From contig JAROBA010000034.1 in assembly GCA_029432815.1 (NCBI GenBank), forward strand, positions 1 through 63,166: DNA of 63,166 nucleotides. The letters are read 5' to 3'. Positions within the stretch are counted from its first letter, which is position 1. Every line of letters starts with the position of its first letter. Below the pieces are notes generated by a model that was given only the letters and a program-made list of their open reading frames with translations, was not told the origin of the DNA and did not search any database. This DNA is from Pontiellaceae bacterium B1224. Its GTDB lineage: Bacteria; Verrucomicrobiota; Kiritimatiellia; Kiritimatiellales; Pontiellaceae. Below, piece by piece: positions 26,447-34,173 of this stretch. Made by a program: the position numbers and the translations under genes.

Positions 26447-28519
26447 ATGAATACCGAACAACTCAAACAGCTTGAAAACGATCTTTGGGCCGCCGCCGAT
26501 AATCTGCGCGCCAACTCCGACCTCAAATCGTCCGAATATGCCACGCCCGTGCTGGGGCTTATTTTCCTCAAGTTTGCCGACAACAAATATGCCTTGGCCG
26601 AAAAGGCGATTCTCACCGAATACGCCAAATGCAAAGGCACGCGCCGCGAAAAGCCGATCTCCGACATTGCCATCGAAAAATGCGGTTTCTATCTGCCCGA
26701 CAACGCGCGCTACGACCACCTGCTCCATCTGCCCGAAGCAAAGAACGTGGCCAAATGCATTAAAGAGGCGATGCGGGACATCGAAAAATATAAGCCCGAG
26801 CTCGATGGCGTACTGCCGAAGGATGAATACATCCCGCTCACCCGCACCGACAACACCCTGCCCGCGCAGCTGCTGAAAACCTTTTCCAACATTCCCCGCA
26901 ATGCCTCCGGCGATATGCTCGGCAAGATCTATGAATATTTTCTGGGCAACTTTGCCCTCGCCGAAGGCCAGGGCGGCGGCGAATTCTTCACCCCCACCTC
27001 CGTCGTGCGGCTGATGGTGGAGATGATCGAACCCTACAAAGGCAAGGTCTACGATCCGGCCTGCGGTTCCGGCGGCATGTTTGTGCAGTCCCAGCACTTT
27101 ATCGAAGACCACCGCCGGGAGCTCGCCGCTCTCGGCGAAACCGACGACGGCGACTCGATCTCGGTCTACGGTCAGGAAAAGACACTCGATACCGTCAAGC
27201 TCGCCAAAATGAACCTGGCCGTCAACGGTTTACGTGGCGAAGTGCGGCAGGCCAACTCCTATGCCGAAGATCCGTACGACGGCTTCGGCCAGTTTGATTT
27301 TGTGATGGCCAACCCGCCCTTCAACGTCGACGACGTGCCGATTGCCACCGTGGAAAACGATGCGCGTTTCAACACCTACGGCATTCCGCGCAAAAAGACC
27401 AAAGCCAAAAAAAGCGAACAGGGCAAAGAAACCGTCCCCAACGCCAACTATCTCTGGATCAACCTCTTTGCCACCTCGCTCAAAGAAAATGGCCGCGCCG
27501 CGCTCGTCATGGCCAACTCCGCCTCCGACGCCCGCCACTCCGAGGCCGACATCCGCCGCACGCTGATCGAAAACAACCTGATCTACGGCATGCTCACCCT
27601 GCCCTCGAACATGTTCTACACGGTCACCCTGCCCGCCACACTCTGGTTTTTCGACAAAGGCAAAACCGACGACCGCCTCCTGTTCGTCGACGCGCGCAAC
27701 ATTTTCACGCCCATCGACCGCGCCCACCGCGAATTTTCCGAAGCGCAGGTGCACAACATTGCGCTCATCACCAAGCTGCACCGCGGCAACCGCCGCGCCT
27801 TTGTGCGGCAGATCGACCGCTACTTTTTCCAGGGATTGGAAGCCCTCGTCGAAAACGAAAAACAGGTCAAACCCGTCTCCGAACAGCTCCTCGACGTGCT
27901 CGACGACGACGCCGGAAAGCTGGCCGTCGGCGAACTGGTGAAGCAATGGAAGACGCTCGGCAAACTCCAAAAGCAGCACGCCGACTATGCCGCCGATACT
28001 AAAAACAAATTCCGCGCGCAGAAAAATGTAGAGGCCATTAACAAAGCCCAGCACCAACTGCGCAAAACGTTCGAACCCTTTTTCGAAGCCCTGCACACCG
28101 GCCTCAAGCAGCTCGACAAAACCGTGCGCACCCACGAAAAAGCGGAGAAGAAAAAGCGCCCCGATCGCGCCGTCAAAAAACTCAAAGAAGCCCTCGAAGC
28201 ACTGCATACCGAAGTGAAGAATGCCGAACTGTTCTTCAAGCACATCCACTGGCTGCAGGAGCGCTTCCCCAACGCCGCATACGAAGACGTCACCGGACTC
28301 TGTAAACTCGCCACGCCCGACGAAGTCGCTGAGCAGGATTTTTCATTAAACCCCGGCCGCTACGTCGGCGTCGCCATCGAAGAAGACGGCAAATCCGAAG
28401 AGGAGTTTGTCGAGGAGTTGATTGCGATGAATGAGGAACTTTCTGCGCTCTCAAAAGACGCTAAGAAGCTGGAGAAAATCATTTCAGAGAACATCTCAAT
28501 CCTGACAGGAGAAGTATGA
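26447..28519 (+). CDS. hsdM: Type I restriction-modification methyltransferase HsdM
   Basis: A 690-aa N6-adenine methyltransferase subunit. The N-terminal HsdM helical domain (LKQLENDLWAAADNLRANSD) is followed by the SAM-binding DPACGSGGMF motif at residue 203 and the catalytic NPPF motif at residue 289. Residues about 490-690 form a long Lys/Glu-rich helical extension, likely coiled coil. Start 26447 (MNTEQLKQL) was chosen because the upstream frame from 26288 is low-complexity and unlike the family. A palindrome at 27827-27841 encodes FQGLE. The stop overlaps hsdS (ATGA). Confidence 0.96.
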   Translation: MNTEQLKQLENDLWAAADNLRANSDLKSSEYATPVLGLIFLKFADNKYALAEKAILTEYAKCKGTRREKPISDIAIEKCGFYLPDNARYDHLLHLPEAKNVAKCIKEAMRDIEKYKPELDGVLPKDEYIPLTRTDNTLPAQLLKTFSNIPRNASGDMLGKIYEYFLGNFALAEGQGGGEFFTPTSVVRLMVEMIEPYKGKVYDPACGSGGMFVQSQHFIEDHRRELAALGETDDGDSISVYGQEKTLDTVKLAKMNLAVNGLRGEVRQANSYAEDPYDGFGQFDFVMANPPFNVDDVPIATVENDARFNTYGIPRKKTKAKKSEQGKETVPNANYLWINLFATSLKENGRAALVMANSASDARHSEADIRRTLIENNLIYGMLTLPSNMFYTVTLPATLWFFDKGKTDDRLLFVDARNIFTPIDRAHREFSEAQVHNIALITKLHRGNRRAFVRQIDRYFFQGLEALVENEKQVKPVSEQLLDVLDDDAGKLAVGELVKQWKTLGKLQKQHADYAADTKNKFRAQKNVEAINKAQHQLRKTFEPFFEALHTGLKQLDKTVRTHEKAEKKKRPDRAVKKLKEALEALHTEVKNAELFFKHIHWLQERFPNAAYEDVTGLCKLATPDEVAEQDFSLNPGRYVGVAIEEDGKSEEEFVEELIAMNEELSALSKDAKKLEKIISENISILTGEV
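27827..27841. repeat. TTCCA-N5-TGGAA palindrome, spacer GGGAT
   Basis: Exact arms in hsdM, encoding FQGLE. Confidence 0.9.
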
Positions 28520-29688
28520 GAGGGTTTTCAGAAATTCAACTTGGAGATGCTCTAACCTTTCAGAGGGGATTCGACATCACCAAAAAAGAGCAAACACCTG
28601 GCAACATCCCCATTGTTTCCTCTTCAGGCGTCAGCAGCACCCACAATAAATTCAAGGTCGAAGGCCCTGGTGTTGTGATTGGCAGAAAAGGAACATTGGG
28701 AACAGTGCATTACATTCCCAATAATTTTTGGCCTCACGACACAACATTGTGGATACGAGATTTCAAAGGCAACAATCCGAGATTCTTATCCTATTTTCTG
28801 AAAACTCTGTATCTGGAAAATTTTGACACAGGCTCATCCAACCCAACCTTGAACAGAAATCATATTCATAAAATCAAAGTCATTTTTCCCAATCGGAAAA
28901 TCCAGAACAAGATCGCGGCGATTCTCTCGGCGTATGATGAATTGATAGAGAATAATCGGCGGCGGATTGTTTTATTGGAGCGGATAGCGGAGGAGCTCTA
29001 CCGCGAATGGTTTGTCCGTTTCCGCTTCCCCAACCACCAAACCACCCCCTTCAAAAAAGGCATCCCCGAAGGGTGGGAATCTATCTCCATAAATGAGTTC
29101 GTTGATTTTAAATCAGGATTCGCCTTCAAAAGCAAAACATACTTAAAAGATGGGAAGCATGGGATTGTCACAATTAAAAATGTGCATAACGGAAAGTTCG
29201 TTAGTGAATGCACAGATTCCATTAATGAACCACCAAGCAAATTGCCAAAACACTGTTTTCTGAAAACTGGCGACATTCTAATGTCTCTCACGGGAAACGT
29301 TGGCAGAGTTTGCATTTTCTTTGGCAGCAACATGCTTCTCAATCAACGCGTTGTGGTTTTGAAGCCAAAAACAAAGAACCAATCACATTTCATCTATTGG
29401 ATGTTTAGGCAAAATTCGATGACTACCTTTTCTGAAATGATTTCAACAGGAGCTGCTCAACAAAATCTGAGCCCCATAAAACTAGGCAACCAGAGTGTTA
29501 TTTTTCCTTCATTAGAAATTATTGAAAGCTACCAAGCCAAGGTTTCTCCATTAATGGAACAAATCTTGGTTCTCCAGAAAGAAAACGAAACCCTCACGCG
29601 CACGAAAAACGCGTTATTACCGCGGCTGATCTCGGGGTCGCTTTCGGTGGAGGAGCTGGCGGTCGCCTTTCCGCCGGGGATGGAATAG
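28516..29688 (+). CDS. hsdS: Type I restriction-modification specificity subunit HsdS
   Basis: A 390-aa specificity subunit with two target recognition domains (about residues 1-135 and 185-330) separated by conserved helices; QNKIAAILSAYDELIENNRR and the repeat-like ending LTRTKNALLPRLISG are the typical conserved regions. It determines the two half sites of the recognition sequence. The start overlaps the hsdM stop by four bases. Its base composition is more AT-rich than hsdM and hsdR, common for exchanged recognition domains. The recognition sequence cannot be read from the protein alone. Confidence 0.95.
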   Translation: MRGFSEIQLGDALTFQRGFDITKKEQTPGNIPIVSSSGVSSTHNKFKVEGPGVVIGRKGTLGTVHYIPNNFWPHDTTLWIRDFKGNNPRFLSYFLKTLYLENFDTGSSNPTLNRNHIHKIKVIFPNRKIQNKIAAILSAYDELIENNRRRIVLLERIAEELYREWFVRFRFPNHQTTPFKKGIPEGWESISINEFVDFKSGFAFKSKTYLKDGKHGIVTIKNVHNGKFVSECTDSINEPPSKLPKHCFLKTGDILMSLTGNVGRVCIFFGSNMLLNQRVVVLKPKTKNQSHFIYWMFRQNSMTTFSEMISTGAAQQNLSPIKLGNQSVIFPSLEIIESYQAKVSPLMEQILVLQKENETLTRTKNALLPRLISGSLSVEELAVAFPPGME

Positions 29689-29691
29689 GTA

Positions 29692-29789
29692 GGGATGGCT
29701 CTCCGAGCCGTCCGCACGCACGAACGGCCCCTGCATCCGCGCGGCGGTGTGGGACACACCGCCCTACCCTTCATTTCCAATCCTTGGAA
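29692..29789. repeat. REP-like palindromes before the RAYT gene
   Basis: GGGATGGCTCTCCGAGCCGTCC is followed by a perfect GCGGTGTG-GGA-CACACCGC hairpin (29741-29759) and an exact TTCCA palindrome at 29775-29789. Clusters of short palindromes at the flank are a hallmark of REP-associated tyrosine transposase genes. Confidence 0.6.
29775..29789. repeat. TTCCA-N5-TGGAA palindrome, spacer ATCCT
   Basis: Exact arms between hsdS and the RAYT gene, next to REP-like hairpins. Confidence 0.9.
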
Positions 29790-29818
29790 ACGCGCAAAAT
29801 CCATGCTATTGCTTTGGC

Positions 29819-30847
29819 ATGAAAAAGGGCGCATACGATCCATCAATCCACCACCGCCGCTCCATCCGGCTGAAGGGGCATGATTATGCGGGCGGCGGGC
29901 TTTATTTCATCACTCTCTGCGCGCATCGGGATGCGGGGAATCTTTTCGGGGCGGCGGCAAAGGAAATCCTTACCCGGATCTGGGAGGAGGTTTGCCGGGA
30001 TGCGCTGAATAATCAGGCAGTAGGCGCGGGAAAAGATGGGCTGGGAAAAGATGGGCAGACACAAGGCCTGCCCGGACGGGCGCGCCTTGTGTGCGCCCCT
30101 TCCGCCCCTCCTGCCCCTTCCGCCCAAGAGGGAAGGCATGAAGCCCTCCCCTACTGCATTATGCCGGATCATTTTCATGGGCTGATTAAAATTGAAAAAG
30201 GGGAAAAGGCGCTGGGCGATTTTATCTGCGCCTTTAAATCCCGCACGACGCATGAATATATCCGGGGCGTGAAGGCCGGAATGCTTCCGCCTTTTCCGGG
30301 CAAAATCTGGCATCGGAATTATTATGAAATGATTGTGCGTTCGGCGGAGGCGGAAGAGAAGATTACGAAATATATCCGGATGAATCCGTGGCGGTGTGTG
30401 CAGAATTTTGGCAATGGCCTGCGCGGGATGGGGAATCCGGCGTTGTGGAATGCAGAGAAACTGGGGGTGCTGTGCAGCCGGAACGCGCCGCGCCCGGATC
30501 GCATCCCGAAAGCAGCGGCCTATTTCAGCGGCTTCCATTCGCCGATGGAAAAGGAAACCTTTGCCAAGCTGCTGGAATGCAAACGCCCGGTGATCTGGTG
30601 CCCGGCGTGGGGGTTGGGGCAGACACAGGGGCGCACACAAGGCGCGCCCCTACTGGATGCCCTGGAAAACAACCGGGTGCTGATTCTGGAAATGCGCGAC
30701 ACGGCGGGAAATCTTGCGGCGGCGGAGGCGCGCAACCGCTTTGTGCTGGAACGGGCGGATCGGCTGTGGCTTCCGCATGTGCAGCCAGGCGGCATGCTGG
30801 ATCGCCTGCTGCGGGAAACGGGCAAAAGAACTGAAAGGGATTTGTAA
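29819..30847 (+). mobile_element. REP-associated tyrosine transposase fused to a DprA-like domain
   Basis: A 342-aa protein. Residues about 1-190 are a Y1/HUH transposase of the RAYT type: IRLKGHDYAGGGLYFITLCA, the metal-binding PDHFHGLIKI, then WHRNYYEMIVRSAEAEEKI and YIRMNPW. RAYT proteins cut and paste REP palindromes by single-strand transfer. Residues about 195-342 (GNPALWNAEKLGVLCSR, SGFHSPMEKETFAKLL, PVIWCPAWGL, ARNRFVLERADRLWLP, PGGMLDRLL) look like a Rossmann-type DprA/SLOG-family protein. Two insertions reading QTQGLPGRARL and QTQGRTQGAP are translated copies of REP-like palindromes inside the gene itself. It splits hsdS from hsdR in the same orientation. Confidence 0.75.
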
Positions 30848-30882
30848 TTATTTTTTGCGCCGCACGCGCCTTTCGTGCTTAA

Positions 30883-33800
30883 ATGTTTCTCAACATGCCT
30901 AAGAATTTCATCAGCGAAGACAACATCGAGCAGGCGCTGCTTCAGCACCTGCAGCATGATCATGGTTTTGACACGCTGAATTGCTTTACGGCCGATCCCT
31001 CCCAGCTCGATGACGATTCGGGGCGCGCGGATAAACGCGATGTGGTTTTGGCGGAGCGTCTGCGGGAAGCCTGCATTTCTTTGAACCCAACTATTCCCGC
31101 TGAGGTGATCGATGCACAGGTGCTGCCGAAGCTGTTGGATCGGCGCGGGGCGATGAGCCCGATGGCGGCGAATCGCGAACTGGACGGCCTGATCCGCGAT
31201 GGCGTGCCGGTGGAGTTTGATGATGCCGAGGGTGTGAAGCAGCACGAGCGCGTGCGGCTGATTGATTTTGATGATCCGGCAAATAACCGCTATCTGGCGG
31301 TTTCCCAACTCTGGATTAAATCATCGGTGCAGGCTCCGTATGCAGCGTATCGCCGCCCGGATGTGATCCTGTATGTCAATGGCCTGCCGCTGGTATTTGT
31401 TGAATTGAAAAACTCGAACATCAAACTGCGGTCAGCGTTTGAGGATAATCTCAAGAACTATAAACACGACATTCCACAGCTGTTCCACTGCAATGCGTTT
31501 TGCATGCTGTCGAACGCCATTGAAACGAAGGTGGGCAGCTTTACGGCGGGTTGGGAACATTTCTTTGCCTGGCTGCGGGTGGAGCATGAAACGGAAACGG
31601 TCGACCGCGCGGTCATCGCGGCAACGGGCACAAGCATCGAACGCGCGGTGGCGGGGCTGTGTTCCCCGGCCCGTCTGCTGGACTATGTGGAAAACTTTAT
31701 TCTGTTCCACAAGGAATCGACCAAGATCATCGCCCAGAACCATCAGTTTATCGGCGTGAACCAGGCGTTCGACCGCTTCCTAAAGCGCGGGGAGCTCGAT
31801 GGCAAGCTGGGTGTGTTCTGGCATACGCAGGGGTCGGGCAAAAGCTTTTCGATGATTTTCTATGTGCGCAAGATTTTCCGCAAGGTGACGGGCAACTTCA
31901 GCTTTGTGGTGGTGACCGACCGCCAGGATCTGGATGGGCAGATCTACCGCAACTTTCTGCATACGGGCACGGTCCAAAAGAGCGATGCGGCGCAGCCATC
32001 GAATTCGACGGAGATGCGGAAGTTTCTGGGGCAGAATAAAAAGGTGGTCTTTACGCTGATCCAGAAGTTCCGCTACGACAAGGGCAAGGCCTACCCGCAG
32101 CTGTTCGATTCTTCCACCGAACAGCGCGAGGTGGTGGTGATGGTGGATGAGGCGCATCGCACGCAATATAAGAGCCTGGCGGAAAATATGCGGGCGGGGC
32201 TGAAGGGCGCACATTTTATTGCGTTCACGGGCACGCCGTTGCTGGGGCGCGAGCGCAAAACGAATGCCTGGTTCGGCGACTATGTTTCGGAATACAACTT
32301 TCAGCAGGCGGCGGACGATGGCGCAACGGTTCCGCTCTTTTACCAAAAGCGCGTGCCGGAAATGCTGATCCAGAATGAGGATCTGAGCGAAGAGTTCTAC
32401 GAACTGCTGGAGGATGAAAACCTGGATGAGAAGCAGCAGGAAAAGCTGGAACAGCGCTTTGCCCAGGAGATGCAGGTGATTGTGCGCGACGACCGGCTGG
32501 ATATTCTGGCCAAGGACCTGGTTTATCATTTTCCGAGGCGGGGTTATCTGGGTAAAGGCATGGTGGTAACGGTGGATAAGTTTACCGCTATCAAAATGTA
32601 CAACAAGGTGCAGTACCATTGGAAAGAGGAGATCAAACGCCTGCGCGGCCTGATCCAAACCACGCCCAATGAAATTGAAAAGGCGCGCTTCAAAAAAATC
32701 GTGGCCTTTATGAAGCGGGTCGAAATGGCGGTGGTGATCAGCGATCCCTCGGCCGATAAGGAAAAGTTTGAAAAGGCCGGGCTGGATATTCAACCGCATA
32801 TCAAGCGGCTGGAACAACTGGATGCCAACAGCCACGACCTTGAATTTAACTTTAAGGATCCGGAACATCCGCTCCAGTTGGTTTTTGTCTGCGCCATGTG
32901 GCTGACGGGGTTTGATGCGCCGACGGTTTCGACGCTCTATCTCGACAAGCCGATGAAGGACCATGCGCTGATGCAGACGATTGCCCGCGCCAACCGGGTG
33001 GCGGCGTATCGCATCCGGGGGCACAACGGCGAGCTGATTGAAAAGAAGAACGGCGAGCTGGTCGATTATTACAATGTTTTCCGCAACATGAAGAAAGCGC
33101 TGAAAGATTATGCGCAGGGCGAAGATGACGACCACCAACCGCCGGTGCAGGAAAAGGCGGCTTTGTTCCGCCTGCTCGATGACGCGCTCCGGGAAACGGA
33201 TGAATGGTGCAGCAAATTCGGGCTGGATCTGCATGCGGTGCTCGAAAGTGGCGACACGTTCAAGAGCATTGCCCTGTTCGAGCAGTATGCCGACACCCTG
33301 CTGGGCAGCGAAGCGGATCGCAAAACCTTCAACGTCTATGAGAACACCCTTTCCTCACTTTACGAAGCCTGCAAGCCGGAGGTATTTAATCGGAACCTCG
33401 ACCCGCTGATCGGCGTGGTGCAATACCTGCGTGGCGTGGTGGATTCGCATCTGGATGAGGCCAATATTGACGAGGTGGTCCGCAAGGTCGGCGAGCTGCT
33501 GGATGAAAGTCTCGTGGTTGATAATGCCGAGAAGTTTGCGATCAAGGAGCATCAGGCGGAATACCGTATTGTCCAGAAAGGAAAGACCCTCGATCTGAGC
33601 CGCATCAATTTTGAAAAACTGCACGAGGAGTTCAAGGACGCGAAATACAAGAATATTGAAATTGCGGAAGTGAAATCCTTCATCGAAGACAAGCTGCAGA
33701 AGATGTTGGAAGCCAACCATACCCGTGCCGACTTTGCGCAGAAGCTGCAGGAGATTATCGACCGATATAATGCAGGCGGCTCTTCCACCGAAAACTATTT

Positions 33801-34173
33801 CGACGATCTGATGAAATTTGCGGAACAGATGAAAGCCGAGGACGAACGGCATATTCGTGAAGGATTGTCGGAAGATGAGTTGGAACTATTCGATTTACTG
33901 AAAAAAGAAAAGCTCACCCAGGCGGAAGAACAAAAGGTTAAGCTCGCGGCCAAGCACCTGATTATCCGGCTGCTGGAAAGCCATCCGAAAGTGCTCGTGC
34001 AGGACTGGTGGAAAGACGGCCAAACCCAACTTCGCGTTAAATCCGTTATCGAACACGTGCTCGATAAAGACCTGCCGGAAAGCTATGAGCGCATCGAATT
34101 TAAAGCCAAGTGCGAGCAGGTCTTCGACCTGATCGTCGACTTCGCCGCCCACGGCAGAAAGTGGGTGGCCTGA
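30883..34173 (+). CDS. hsdR: Type I restriction endonuclease subunit HsdR
   Basis: A 1096-aa translocase-nuclease. The PD-ExK nuclease core is seen in PDVILYVNGLPLVFVELKNS near residues 159-178. Superfamily 2 helicase motifs follow: Walker A in HTQGSGKSFSMIF near residue 317, DEAHRT near 422, FTGTPLL near 448, and the later QTIARANRV motif VI near 698. The C-terminal helical part binds the HsdM-HsdS core. The gene may start at the in-frame ATG 30895 (MPKNFISED), which resembles homologues better; neither start has an obvious ribosome binding site. It is full length. Confidence 0.96.
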   Translation: MFLNMPKNFISEDNIEQALLQHLQHDHGFDTLNCFTADPSQLDDDSGRADKRDVVLAERLREACISLNPTIPAEVIDAQVLPKLLDRRGAMSPMAANRELDGLIRDGVPVEFDDAEGVKQHERVRLIDFDDPANNRYLAVSQLWIKSSVQAPYAAYRRPDVILYVNGLPLVFVELKNSNIKLRSAFEDNLKNYKHDIPQLFHCNAFCMLSNAIETKVGSFTAGWEHFFAWLRVEHETETVDRAVIAATGTSIERAVAGLCSPARLLDYVENFILFHKESTKIIAQNHQFIGVNQAFDRFLKRGELDGKLGVFWHTQGSGKSFSMIFYVRKIFRKVTGNFSFVVVTDRQDLDGQIYRNFLHTGTVQKSDAAQPSNSTEMRKFLGQNKKVVFTLIQKFRYDKGKAYPQLFDSSTEQREVVVMVDEAHRTQYKSLAENMRAGLKGAHFIAFTGTPLLGRERKTNAWFGDYVSEYNFQQAADDGATVPLFYQKRVPEMLIQNEDLSEEFYELLEDENLDEKQQEKLEQRFAQEMQVIVRDDRLDILAKDLVYHFPRRGYLGKGMVVTVDKFTAIKMYNKVQYHWKEEIKRLRGLIQTTPNEIEKARFKKIVAFMKRVEMAVVISDPSADKEKFEKAGLDIQPHIKRLEQLDANSHDLEFNFKDPEHPLQLVFVCAMWLTGFDAPTVSTLYLDKPMKDHALMQTIARANRVAAYRIRGHNGELIEKKNGELVDYYNVFRNMKKALKDYAQGEDDDHQPPVQEKAALFRLLDDALRETDEWCSKFGLDLHAVLESGDTFKSIALFEQYADTLLGSEADRKTFNVYENTLSSLYEACKPEVFNRNLDPLIGVVQYLRGVVDSHLDEANIDEVVRKVGELLDESLVVDNAEKFAIKEHQAEYRIVQKGKTLDLSRINFEKLHEEFKDAKYKNIEIAEVKSFIEDKLQKMLEANHTRADFAQKLQEIIDRYNAGGSSTENYFDDLMKFAEQMKAEDERHIREGLSEDELELFDLLKKEKLTQAEEQKVKLAAKHLIIRLLESHPKVLVQDWWKDGQTQLRVKSVIEHVLDKDLPESYERIEFKAKCEQVFDLIVDFAAHGRKWVA

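Follow-up and report, generated by a model that had tools for sequence, protein, structure and literature searches.

The question raised by this locus is what a transposase joined to a DprA-type domain is doing between the genes of a type I restriction operon. REP-associated tyrosine transposases (RAYTs) are widespread low-copy genes, and what the host gains from them has been an open question. The window, that is, the whole stretch of 63,166 nucleotides analysed here, holds one such gene, with hsdS upstream and hsdR downstream. A RAYT that sits in a restriction operon, carries a domain of the type that binds single-stranded DNA (ssDNA) and has coupled reading frames connects RAYTs with the handling of ssDNA and with DNA defence in a way that can be tested.

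A transposase half and a DprA-type half

The gene begins with ATG and runs for 342 codons without an internal stop, as a single intact ORF that opens with MKKGAYDPSIHHRRSIRLKGHDY. The original prediction of a gene in the hsdS-hsdR slot, read in the same direction, was borne out by the ORF map and the domain matches, and the motifs it had quoted (SGFHSPMEKE, PVIWCPAWGL and PGGMLDRLL) are present in the window protein. The fusion of a RAYT with a DprA-type domain is confirmed. The reading as a RAYT/DprA-type gene largely holds and, with its link to the restriction system, is supported. The features are collected in Table 1.

Table 1. Features of the operon, the fusion gene and the associated repeats (positions in the window)
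Feature	Position	Strand	Evidence or remark
hsdM, type I modification subunit	26447..28519	+	N6_Mtase E 1.3e-78; HsdM_N 2.2e-18; PADLOC MTase_I 5.5e-203
hsdS, type I specificity subunit	28516..29688	+	Methylase_S E 2.9e-33, two stretches
Inverted pair of GTAGGG-foot REP hairpins (REPIN/BIME-like)	29689..29767	.	directly 3' of the hsdS stop
TTCCAATCCTTGGAA palindrome, abundant genomic class	29775..29789	.	
Fusion gene, RAYT/TnpAREP (HUH Y1 transposase) + DprA/ShosA-type Rossmann domain	29819..30847	+	342 aa
HUH/Y1 part, residues 1-204	29819..30430	+	invariant motifs in 24 fusions; VIA 4er8 Z 11.8
REP-like hairpin-forming insertion, in frame	30053..30098	.	inverted repeat I2, 22-nt arms, 82% complementary
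Internal GTAG-foot hairpin, immediately ahead of the HUH motif	30130..30154	-	
DprA/ShosA-type domain, residues 205-342 (predicted)	30431..30844	+	AlphaFold pLDDT 86.5; Foldseek/VIA ShosA, DprA
GTAG-foot REP hairpin, in frame	30629..30653	-	loop of the DprA-type domain (GQTQGRTQGAP)
hsdR, type I restriction subunit	30883..34173	+	NCBIfam hsdR E 2.6e-138, above cut-off; SWI2_SNF2, HSDR_N

The first half had been described as the HUH and catalytic Tyr region of a REP-associated transposase, and Pfam, NCBIfam and structural comparison all agree. The Pfam Y1_Tnp model matches residues 103-187 with E 6.6e-7, which is above cut-off, and the NCBIfam model for REP-associated tyrosine transposases gives E 1.1e-15. 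With 57.8 bits the window protein misses the 80-bit equivalog cut-off of this model (NF047646, REP_Tyr_transpos) and is therefore not filed as its equivalog; from fold and motifs, its HUH half is placed in the wider TnpAREP family. The HUH motif is DHFH (D117-H118-F119-H120), the conserved Trp is W164, and the catalytic Tyr is Y185 within YIRMNP, the Y---NP form of class 2. An alignment of 24 fusions shows no variation in the HUH residues, the Trp, the catalytic Tyr or the NP after it. In the full-length AlphaFold model, the part that begins with the HUH strand and ends with the Tyr helix has a pLDDT of mostly 73-94, and the model's top structural match by VIA is E. coli TnpAREP with REP (4er8; rmsd 3.5 over 139 residues), with IS608-type transposases next in the ranking. 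The HUH motif, the Y---NP tyrosine, the conserved Trp and the Y1_Tnp fold of a class 2 RAYT/TnpAREP are thus all found in the window protein.

For the second half, a DprA/SLOG-like domain had been named, with profile searches and structure prediction as the proposed checks. The C-terminal 138 residues carry the motifs GN...SR, SGFHSPxE, RNRFV and PGGM. Pfam, PHROGs and PADLOC gave no match for this half of the window protein, and even when scanned alone the domain had zero significant Pfam matches and did not reach the gathering score of PF02481. In the full-length model this half is weak (pLDDT about 55-68), and the HUH domain dominated the fold search. When the domain was modelled by itself, from 34 sequences, it reached the value in Table 1, the five models spanning 51.8 to 86.5. 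Foldseek against the PDB placed ShosA first (E 1.2e-5), ahead of H. pylori DprA (HpDprA; E 7.7e-5), and S. pneumoniae DprA (SpDprA) was also found. VIA gave Z 14.9 against ShosA (8zva; 147 residues, rmsd 2.8) and Z about 12 (12.3) against HpDprA and SpDprA, the alignments spanning 142-147 residues. By Foldseek and VIA, the domain model has the DprA-type Rossmann (SLOG) fold.

Sequence profiles lead to the same family. The best PDB sequence for a profile of 13 domains is S. pneumoniae DprA (E 0.011); a profile that takes in stand-alone relatives matches it at E 1.8e-4, with GN...SR, SG and RNR aligned. In hhalign, the 13-sequence profile matched the DprA alignment with E 0.011 but at a probability of just 3.7%, the reversed control giving E 0.37; this match is therefore left out of the argument. 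In the profile alignments, the Ser-Arg motif falls on the SR in the strand of DprA, and RNRF falls on RNR; the Ser is invariant and the Arg is kept in at least 90%. In HpDprA, the basic residues that bind ssDNA are Arg52, Lys137 and Arg143. The domain profile also recovered stand-alone proteins in related genomes. While the window domain stays below Pfam detection, two of the four stand-alone relatives scanned pass the PF02481 cut-off (2.1e-9 and 1.3e-8) and two fall just short; in the reverse search PF02481 recovers members of this stand-alone family at 3e-5 and 1e-4. Both of the relatives compared with PADLOC match its PsyrA model (3e-14 to 7e-17). The C-terminal half is called DprA-type because of the structural matches and the transitive homology through these stand-alone relatives.

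The window domain lacks the SAM and winged-helix domains of DprA, and the helix after the SR motif is missing in most members of the family. The real DprA of the host genome is encoded elsewhere (C149, E 9e-73). The C-terminal half is thus, by predicted fold and transitive sequence homology, DprA-type and not DprA itself, its structure being known from prediction alone. It stands nearest to DprA homologues of the ShosA/PsyrA type, which belong to toxin-antitoxin systems. The DprA/SLOG-like assignment therefore stands as regards fold and profile, but the nearest kin are not the DprA proteins of transformation. The stand-alone DprA-like (PsyrA-type) genes include L034/L207, L103/L209 and L104; by eye only, the ORFs beside them look like macro-domain (DarG-like), DUF488 and SNF2/PLD-type helicase genes.

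REP hairpins and the spread of the fusion

The paired REP hairpins at 29689 (+) and 29767 (-) flank the fusion gene and have the GT[AG]G foot of RAYT subclass 2.4. The hairpin at 29767 fits GTAGGGN5TGTCYCAN5C, a pattern with 18 exact copies in the 5.4 Mb genome and 0 in the reversed-pattern control; with only 18 copies, mobility may be low or past. The GTAGGG stems covary: 96.6% of the cells are paired, with 19 both-side changes against 6.6 after shuffling, and slid controls are far lower.

Hairpins also occur within the gene. GTAGGGGCG hairpins were sought with a spaced sequence pattern. Inside 24 fusion ORFs there are 15 hairpins with a GTAG or GTGG foot (0.64/kb), where codon shuffling gives 0.6 expected overall; the density is 0.10/kb in the 600-bp flanks and 0.024/kb farther away. 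The internal hairpins are read in frame and lie in loops of both domains, and in-frame REPs inside the gene are a published mark of subclass 2.4 (PMC6006769). In the alignment, the insertion at 30053..30098 is missing from most homologues, and the stretch around 30629..30653 is shorter in most of them.

Other repeats were observed as well. The palindrome TTCCAA-N2-4-TTGGAA has 112 copies in 463 kb of the genome and zero in codon-shuffled sequence; in the window it is found at 297, 2309, 14888, 18337, 29775, 34689, 36069, 38212, 46280, 46342, 52829 and 57656. GT[AG]G-foot hairpins with other stems also form inverted pairs away from the fusion, at 635/686, 52228/52255 and 53367/53414.

It had also been asked how often the fusion recurs, and where. 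Long full-protein matches were found in many of the 58 relatives' genomes. A GTDB-wide scan with the C-terminal domain only gave 41 loci, and at least 27 of them have the RAYT motifs in the same ORF; the rest are mostly contig-end cuts or fragments, and one (L069) is split by a stop. The fusion loci come nearly all from Kiritimatiellota, Verrucomicrobiota and Lentisphaerota, with 1 MAG labelled Deltaproteobacteria. Most of the genomes surveyed are metagenome-assembled; the isolate Pontiella sulfatireligans F21 has two fusion copies, each one ORF. A profile match was seen in 75 of 289 genomes of the phylum, the weakest of which include genuine DprA-like proteins and distant RAYTs. No fusion was found in scans of viral contigs, phages and plasmids, and no description of it in the main texts of an open-access library under RAYT-DprA, RAYT-restriction or SLOG-transposase.

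In the domain tree, the main fusion family forms one clade (100/100) with a few truncated copies inside. Other RAYT lineages with a related tail are placed elsewhere in this tree, which is unrooted and has some long branches, and a single origin for all RAYT+DprA-type fusions is not supported by it. RAYT lineages with more distant DprA-type tails were seen at L006 (G000 C11), L109, L110, L112, L113, L115 and L116; the pairing of RAYT and DprA-type domain is hence broader than the main family. The dN/dS values, which are rough as dS is near saturation in most pairs, are about 0.14-0.59 for the HUH half, the single close pair giving 0.59, and 0.06-0.41 for the C-terminal half. The values lie well below 1 in both halves, which are under purifying selection. 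A third fusion copy of the source genome (L004, G000 C151:28269-29185) is interrupted close to its start by an in-frame stop; it is probably in decay.

The fusion could also be an artefact, with two genes misjoined by sequencing or assembly, or else a decaying pseudogene. The stop in the C151 copy and the split at L069 are what such an explanation would draw on, the latter being the exception to the rule of one ORF. At least 27 loci from different assemblies have the fusion as a single ORF, and this, the low dN/dS and the intact motifs make an artefact extremely improbable; sequencing error and the two-gene explanation are ruled out by the recurrence across assemblies.

Placement in type I restriction operons

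In the window, the order is hsdM-hsdS-fusion-hsdR, all on the + strand, and hsdM, hsdS and hsdR together make up a type I operon. The likely start of hsdM is MNTEQLKQ at 26447, its ORF being open from 26288, and its stop overlaps the hsdS start as ATGA at 28516-28519. A search with the window Hsd proteins and the profiles built from them found type I genes next to the fusion, or next to a fragment of it, at 16 of the 41 loci. The Hsd proteins of the fusion loci are mostly only 25-30% identical to those of the window, and the arrangements seen include S-x-F-R, M-F-S-R, R-F-S-M and S-F-M. Across 20 genomes, N6_Mtase lies within 5 kb of 10 of the 35 fusion places against 0.39 expected (Poisson p 1.5e-11, which is approximate since neither contig ends nor shared ancestry enter into the expectation). 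The corresponding figure for control RAYT matches is 1 of 21, and this one itself has a similar C-terminal domain.

The fusion genes nearly always share the strand of the restriction operon. An ATGA stop/start overlap with the next gene is present at L037, L039, L041, L050, L058 and L061, and upstream junctions of the TGATG, TAATG or TAA-ATG type at L037, L046 and L055. A related operon in G007 has hsdR 62 bp after gene x, without the fusion; this junction serves as an empty site, and it is filled by the fusion in G009 and G012. The same operon as that of the window is found in G027 (HsdR 85% identical), where the fusion lies between S and R in the reversed orientation. This opposite orientation in a related species (G027 C10:892000-904000, L232, against 29500-31000 of the window) suggests either an inversion between the flanking REPs or a re-insertion. 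In G004, a fusion copy sits between remnants of hsdR and hsdM.

About half of the fusions are away from restriction genes, several of them beside housekeeping genes; one is beside a cytosine methylase (L048) and another beside an HNH nuclease (L072). Type I operons of relatives were also seen to hold varied cargo among hsdM, hsdS and hsdR (L224, L225, L226, L229 and L236), and the other cargo in such operons includes DUF3800, RhuM-Fic, 23S_rRNA_IVP, BRO-N and patatin proteins. The suggested tie between the gene and the restriction system thus fares well as to association, which recurs far above expectation, while co-function is still something that we infer.

Possible roles and comparison with known systems

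The reading we prefer as the most economical, and consider about as probable as all else, is that of a domesticated REP-processing RAYT with its own DprA-type ssDNA module, carried as coupled cargo of type I operons. From its motifs and REP features, not from a shared tree, the gene appears to fit the RAYT subclass 2.4 / group 4 type. Its HUH domain would most likely bind GTAG-foot REP hairpins in ssDNA, and Tyr185 would most likely be the means of cutting and rejoining them; TnpAREP cuts single-stranded REPs next to the GTAG foot (PMC8266576). For the DprA-type domain, the most likely task is to hold a single strand, flanking or incoming, to dimerise, and to protect this strand or hand it on, perhaps to RecA; strand capture would thereby be coupled to cleavage and rejoining. 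DprA itself binds ssDNA and loads RecA (PMC4489622, PMC12386762). Besides other sites, the gene would occupy type I restriction-modification operons as co-oriented, translationally coupled cargo, and would be kept along with the restriction system while seeding REPs, also into itself. Its standing as cargo rests on the 10 of 35 places near N6_Mtase, the shared strand and the ATGA/TGATG junctions. Against the preferred reading as a whole stand the missing SAM and winged helix, the helix after SR that most members lack, the copies outside restriction loci, the small number of REPs of the window type, and the near-saturated dS with the value of 0.59 for the HUH half in the one close pair. We infer ssDNA binding, cleavage and co-transcription of the fusion gene, and likewise a benefit of the protein to the host or the restriction system. 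The recurrent fusion in restriction operons points to an unexpected partnership between a transposase and DNA defence.

One serious rival, though by itself an unlikely one, is a role in defence like that of PrrC. By analogy with PrrC in EcoprrI, the protein might be an embedded second-line effector with the DprA/ShosA-type domain as sensor, which would sense ssDNA or restriction failure and let the HUH nuclease loose on phage or host DNA. The hsdS-hsdR and similar slots are the kind of place occupied by prrC, which is embedded in the EcoprrI operon (PMC3874165; see also PMC12707154). The PsyrA matches of the stand-alone relatives and ShosA as the top fold are further points for this role, DprA homologues being the antitoxins of shosTA and of systems related to it (PMC9122126), and the RhuM-Fic, DUF3800 and patatin cargo is of kinds often near defence genes. 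However, the copies outside restriction operons, some beside housekeeping genes, do not suit an effector; the REP hairpins track the gene, as befits an active REP processor, and a ShosT/PsyrT-type toxin partner is absent from the window operon. It is likewise doubtful that a tamed transposase senses or captures phage, conjugative or transforming ssDNA through its DprA/ShosA-type domain and thereby triggers HUH cleavage. If true, this would be a new class of restriction-embedded defence nuclease, derived from a REP transposase, in Kiritimatiellota.

The other serious rival is a pure hitch-hiker, a selfish REPtron that settles at the stop/start junctions of mobile, addictive restriction operons and whose DprA-type domain improves only its own ssDNA transactions, without gain to the host. 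The differing slots across unrelated restriction systems, the x-hsdR junction that is empty in one genome and filled in two others, the reversed copy in G027 and the G004 copy among operon remnants all favour it. The near-uniform co-orientation and the 4-nt overlaps would be unexpected from blind insertion, though, and purifying selection on both domains across a large divergence argues the same way; we give this rival only a small chance. Still less probable is a restriction regulator, in which the DprA-type domain would moderate the type I enzyme encoded next to it while DNA is being taken up. The operon coupling and the precedent of HpDprA, which inhibits a restriction enzyme and stimulates a methyltransferase (PMC4489622), agree with such a role; but HpDprA is a full transformation protein, the contact with Hsd is putative here, and the host has its own DprA.

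Among known systems, PrrC in EcoprrI resembles the fusion in position only, as an extra gene inside a type I operon; PrrC is an anticodon nuclease, unrelated to the fusion protein. DprA/Smf (PF02481) shares the Rossmann core with GN...SR, SG and RNR, while the fusion lacks SAM and winged helix, stays below Pfam detection and belongs to a family that has mostly lost the helix after SR. The DprA-like antitoxins ShosA and PsyrA (shosTA/psyrTA) give the best structural match and a PADLOC model that the stand-alone relatives fit. The fusion is unlike them in being joined to a HUH transposase, and the phosphoribosyltransferase toxin partner of ShosTA/PsyrTA was not found in the window operon, where the gene lies between hsdS and hsdR. 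TnpAREP/RAYT subclass 2.4 (Bertels group 4; Quentin et al. 2018, PMC6006769) has in common with the fusion the HUH motif, Y---NP, the W-(Q/H)-R-N/D-Y-Y-E segment and GTAG-foot REPs with a GC-paired stem base in and around the gene, including in-frame REPs inside it. The table in that paper gives subclass 2.4 no tail domain, and its text does not mention DprA. The fusion is set apart from this subclass by its C-terminal DprA-type domain and by REP insertions that lie also within this added domain.
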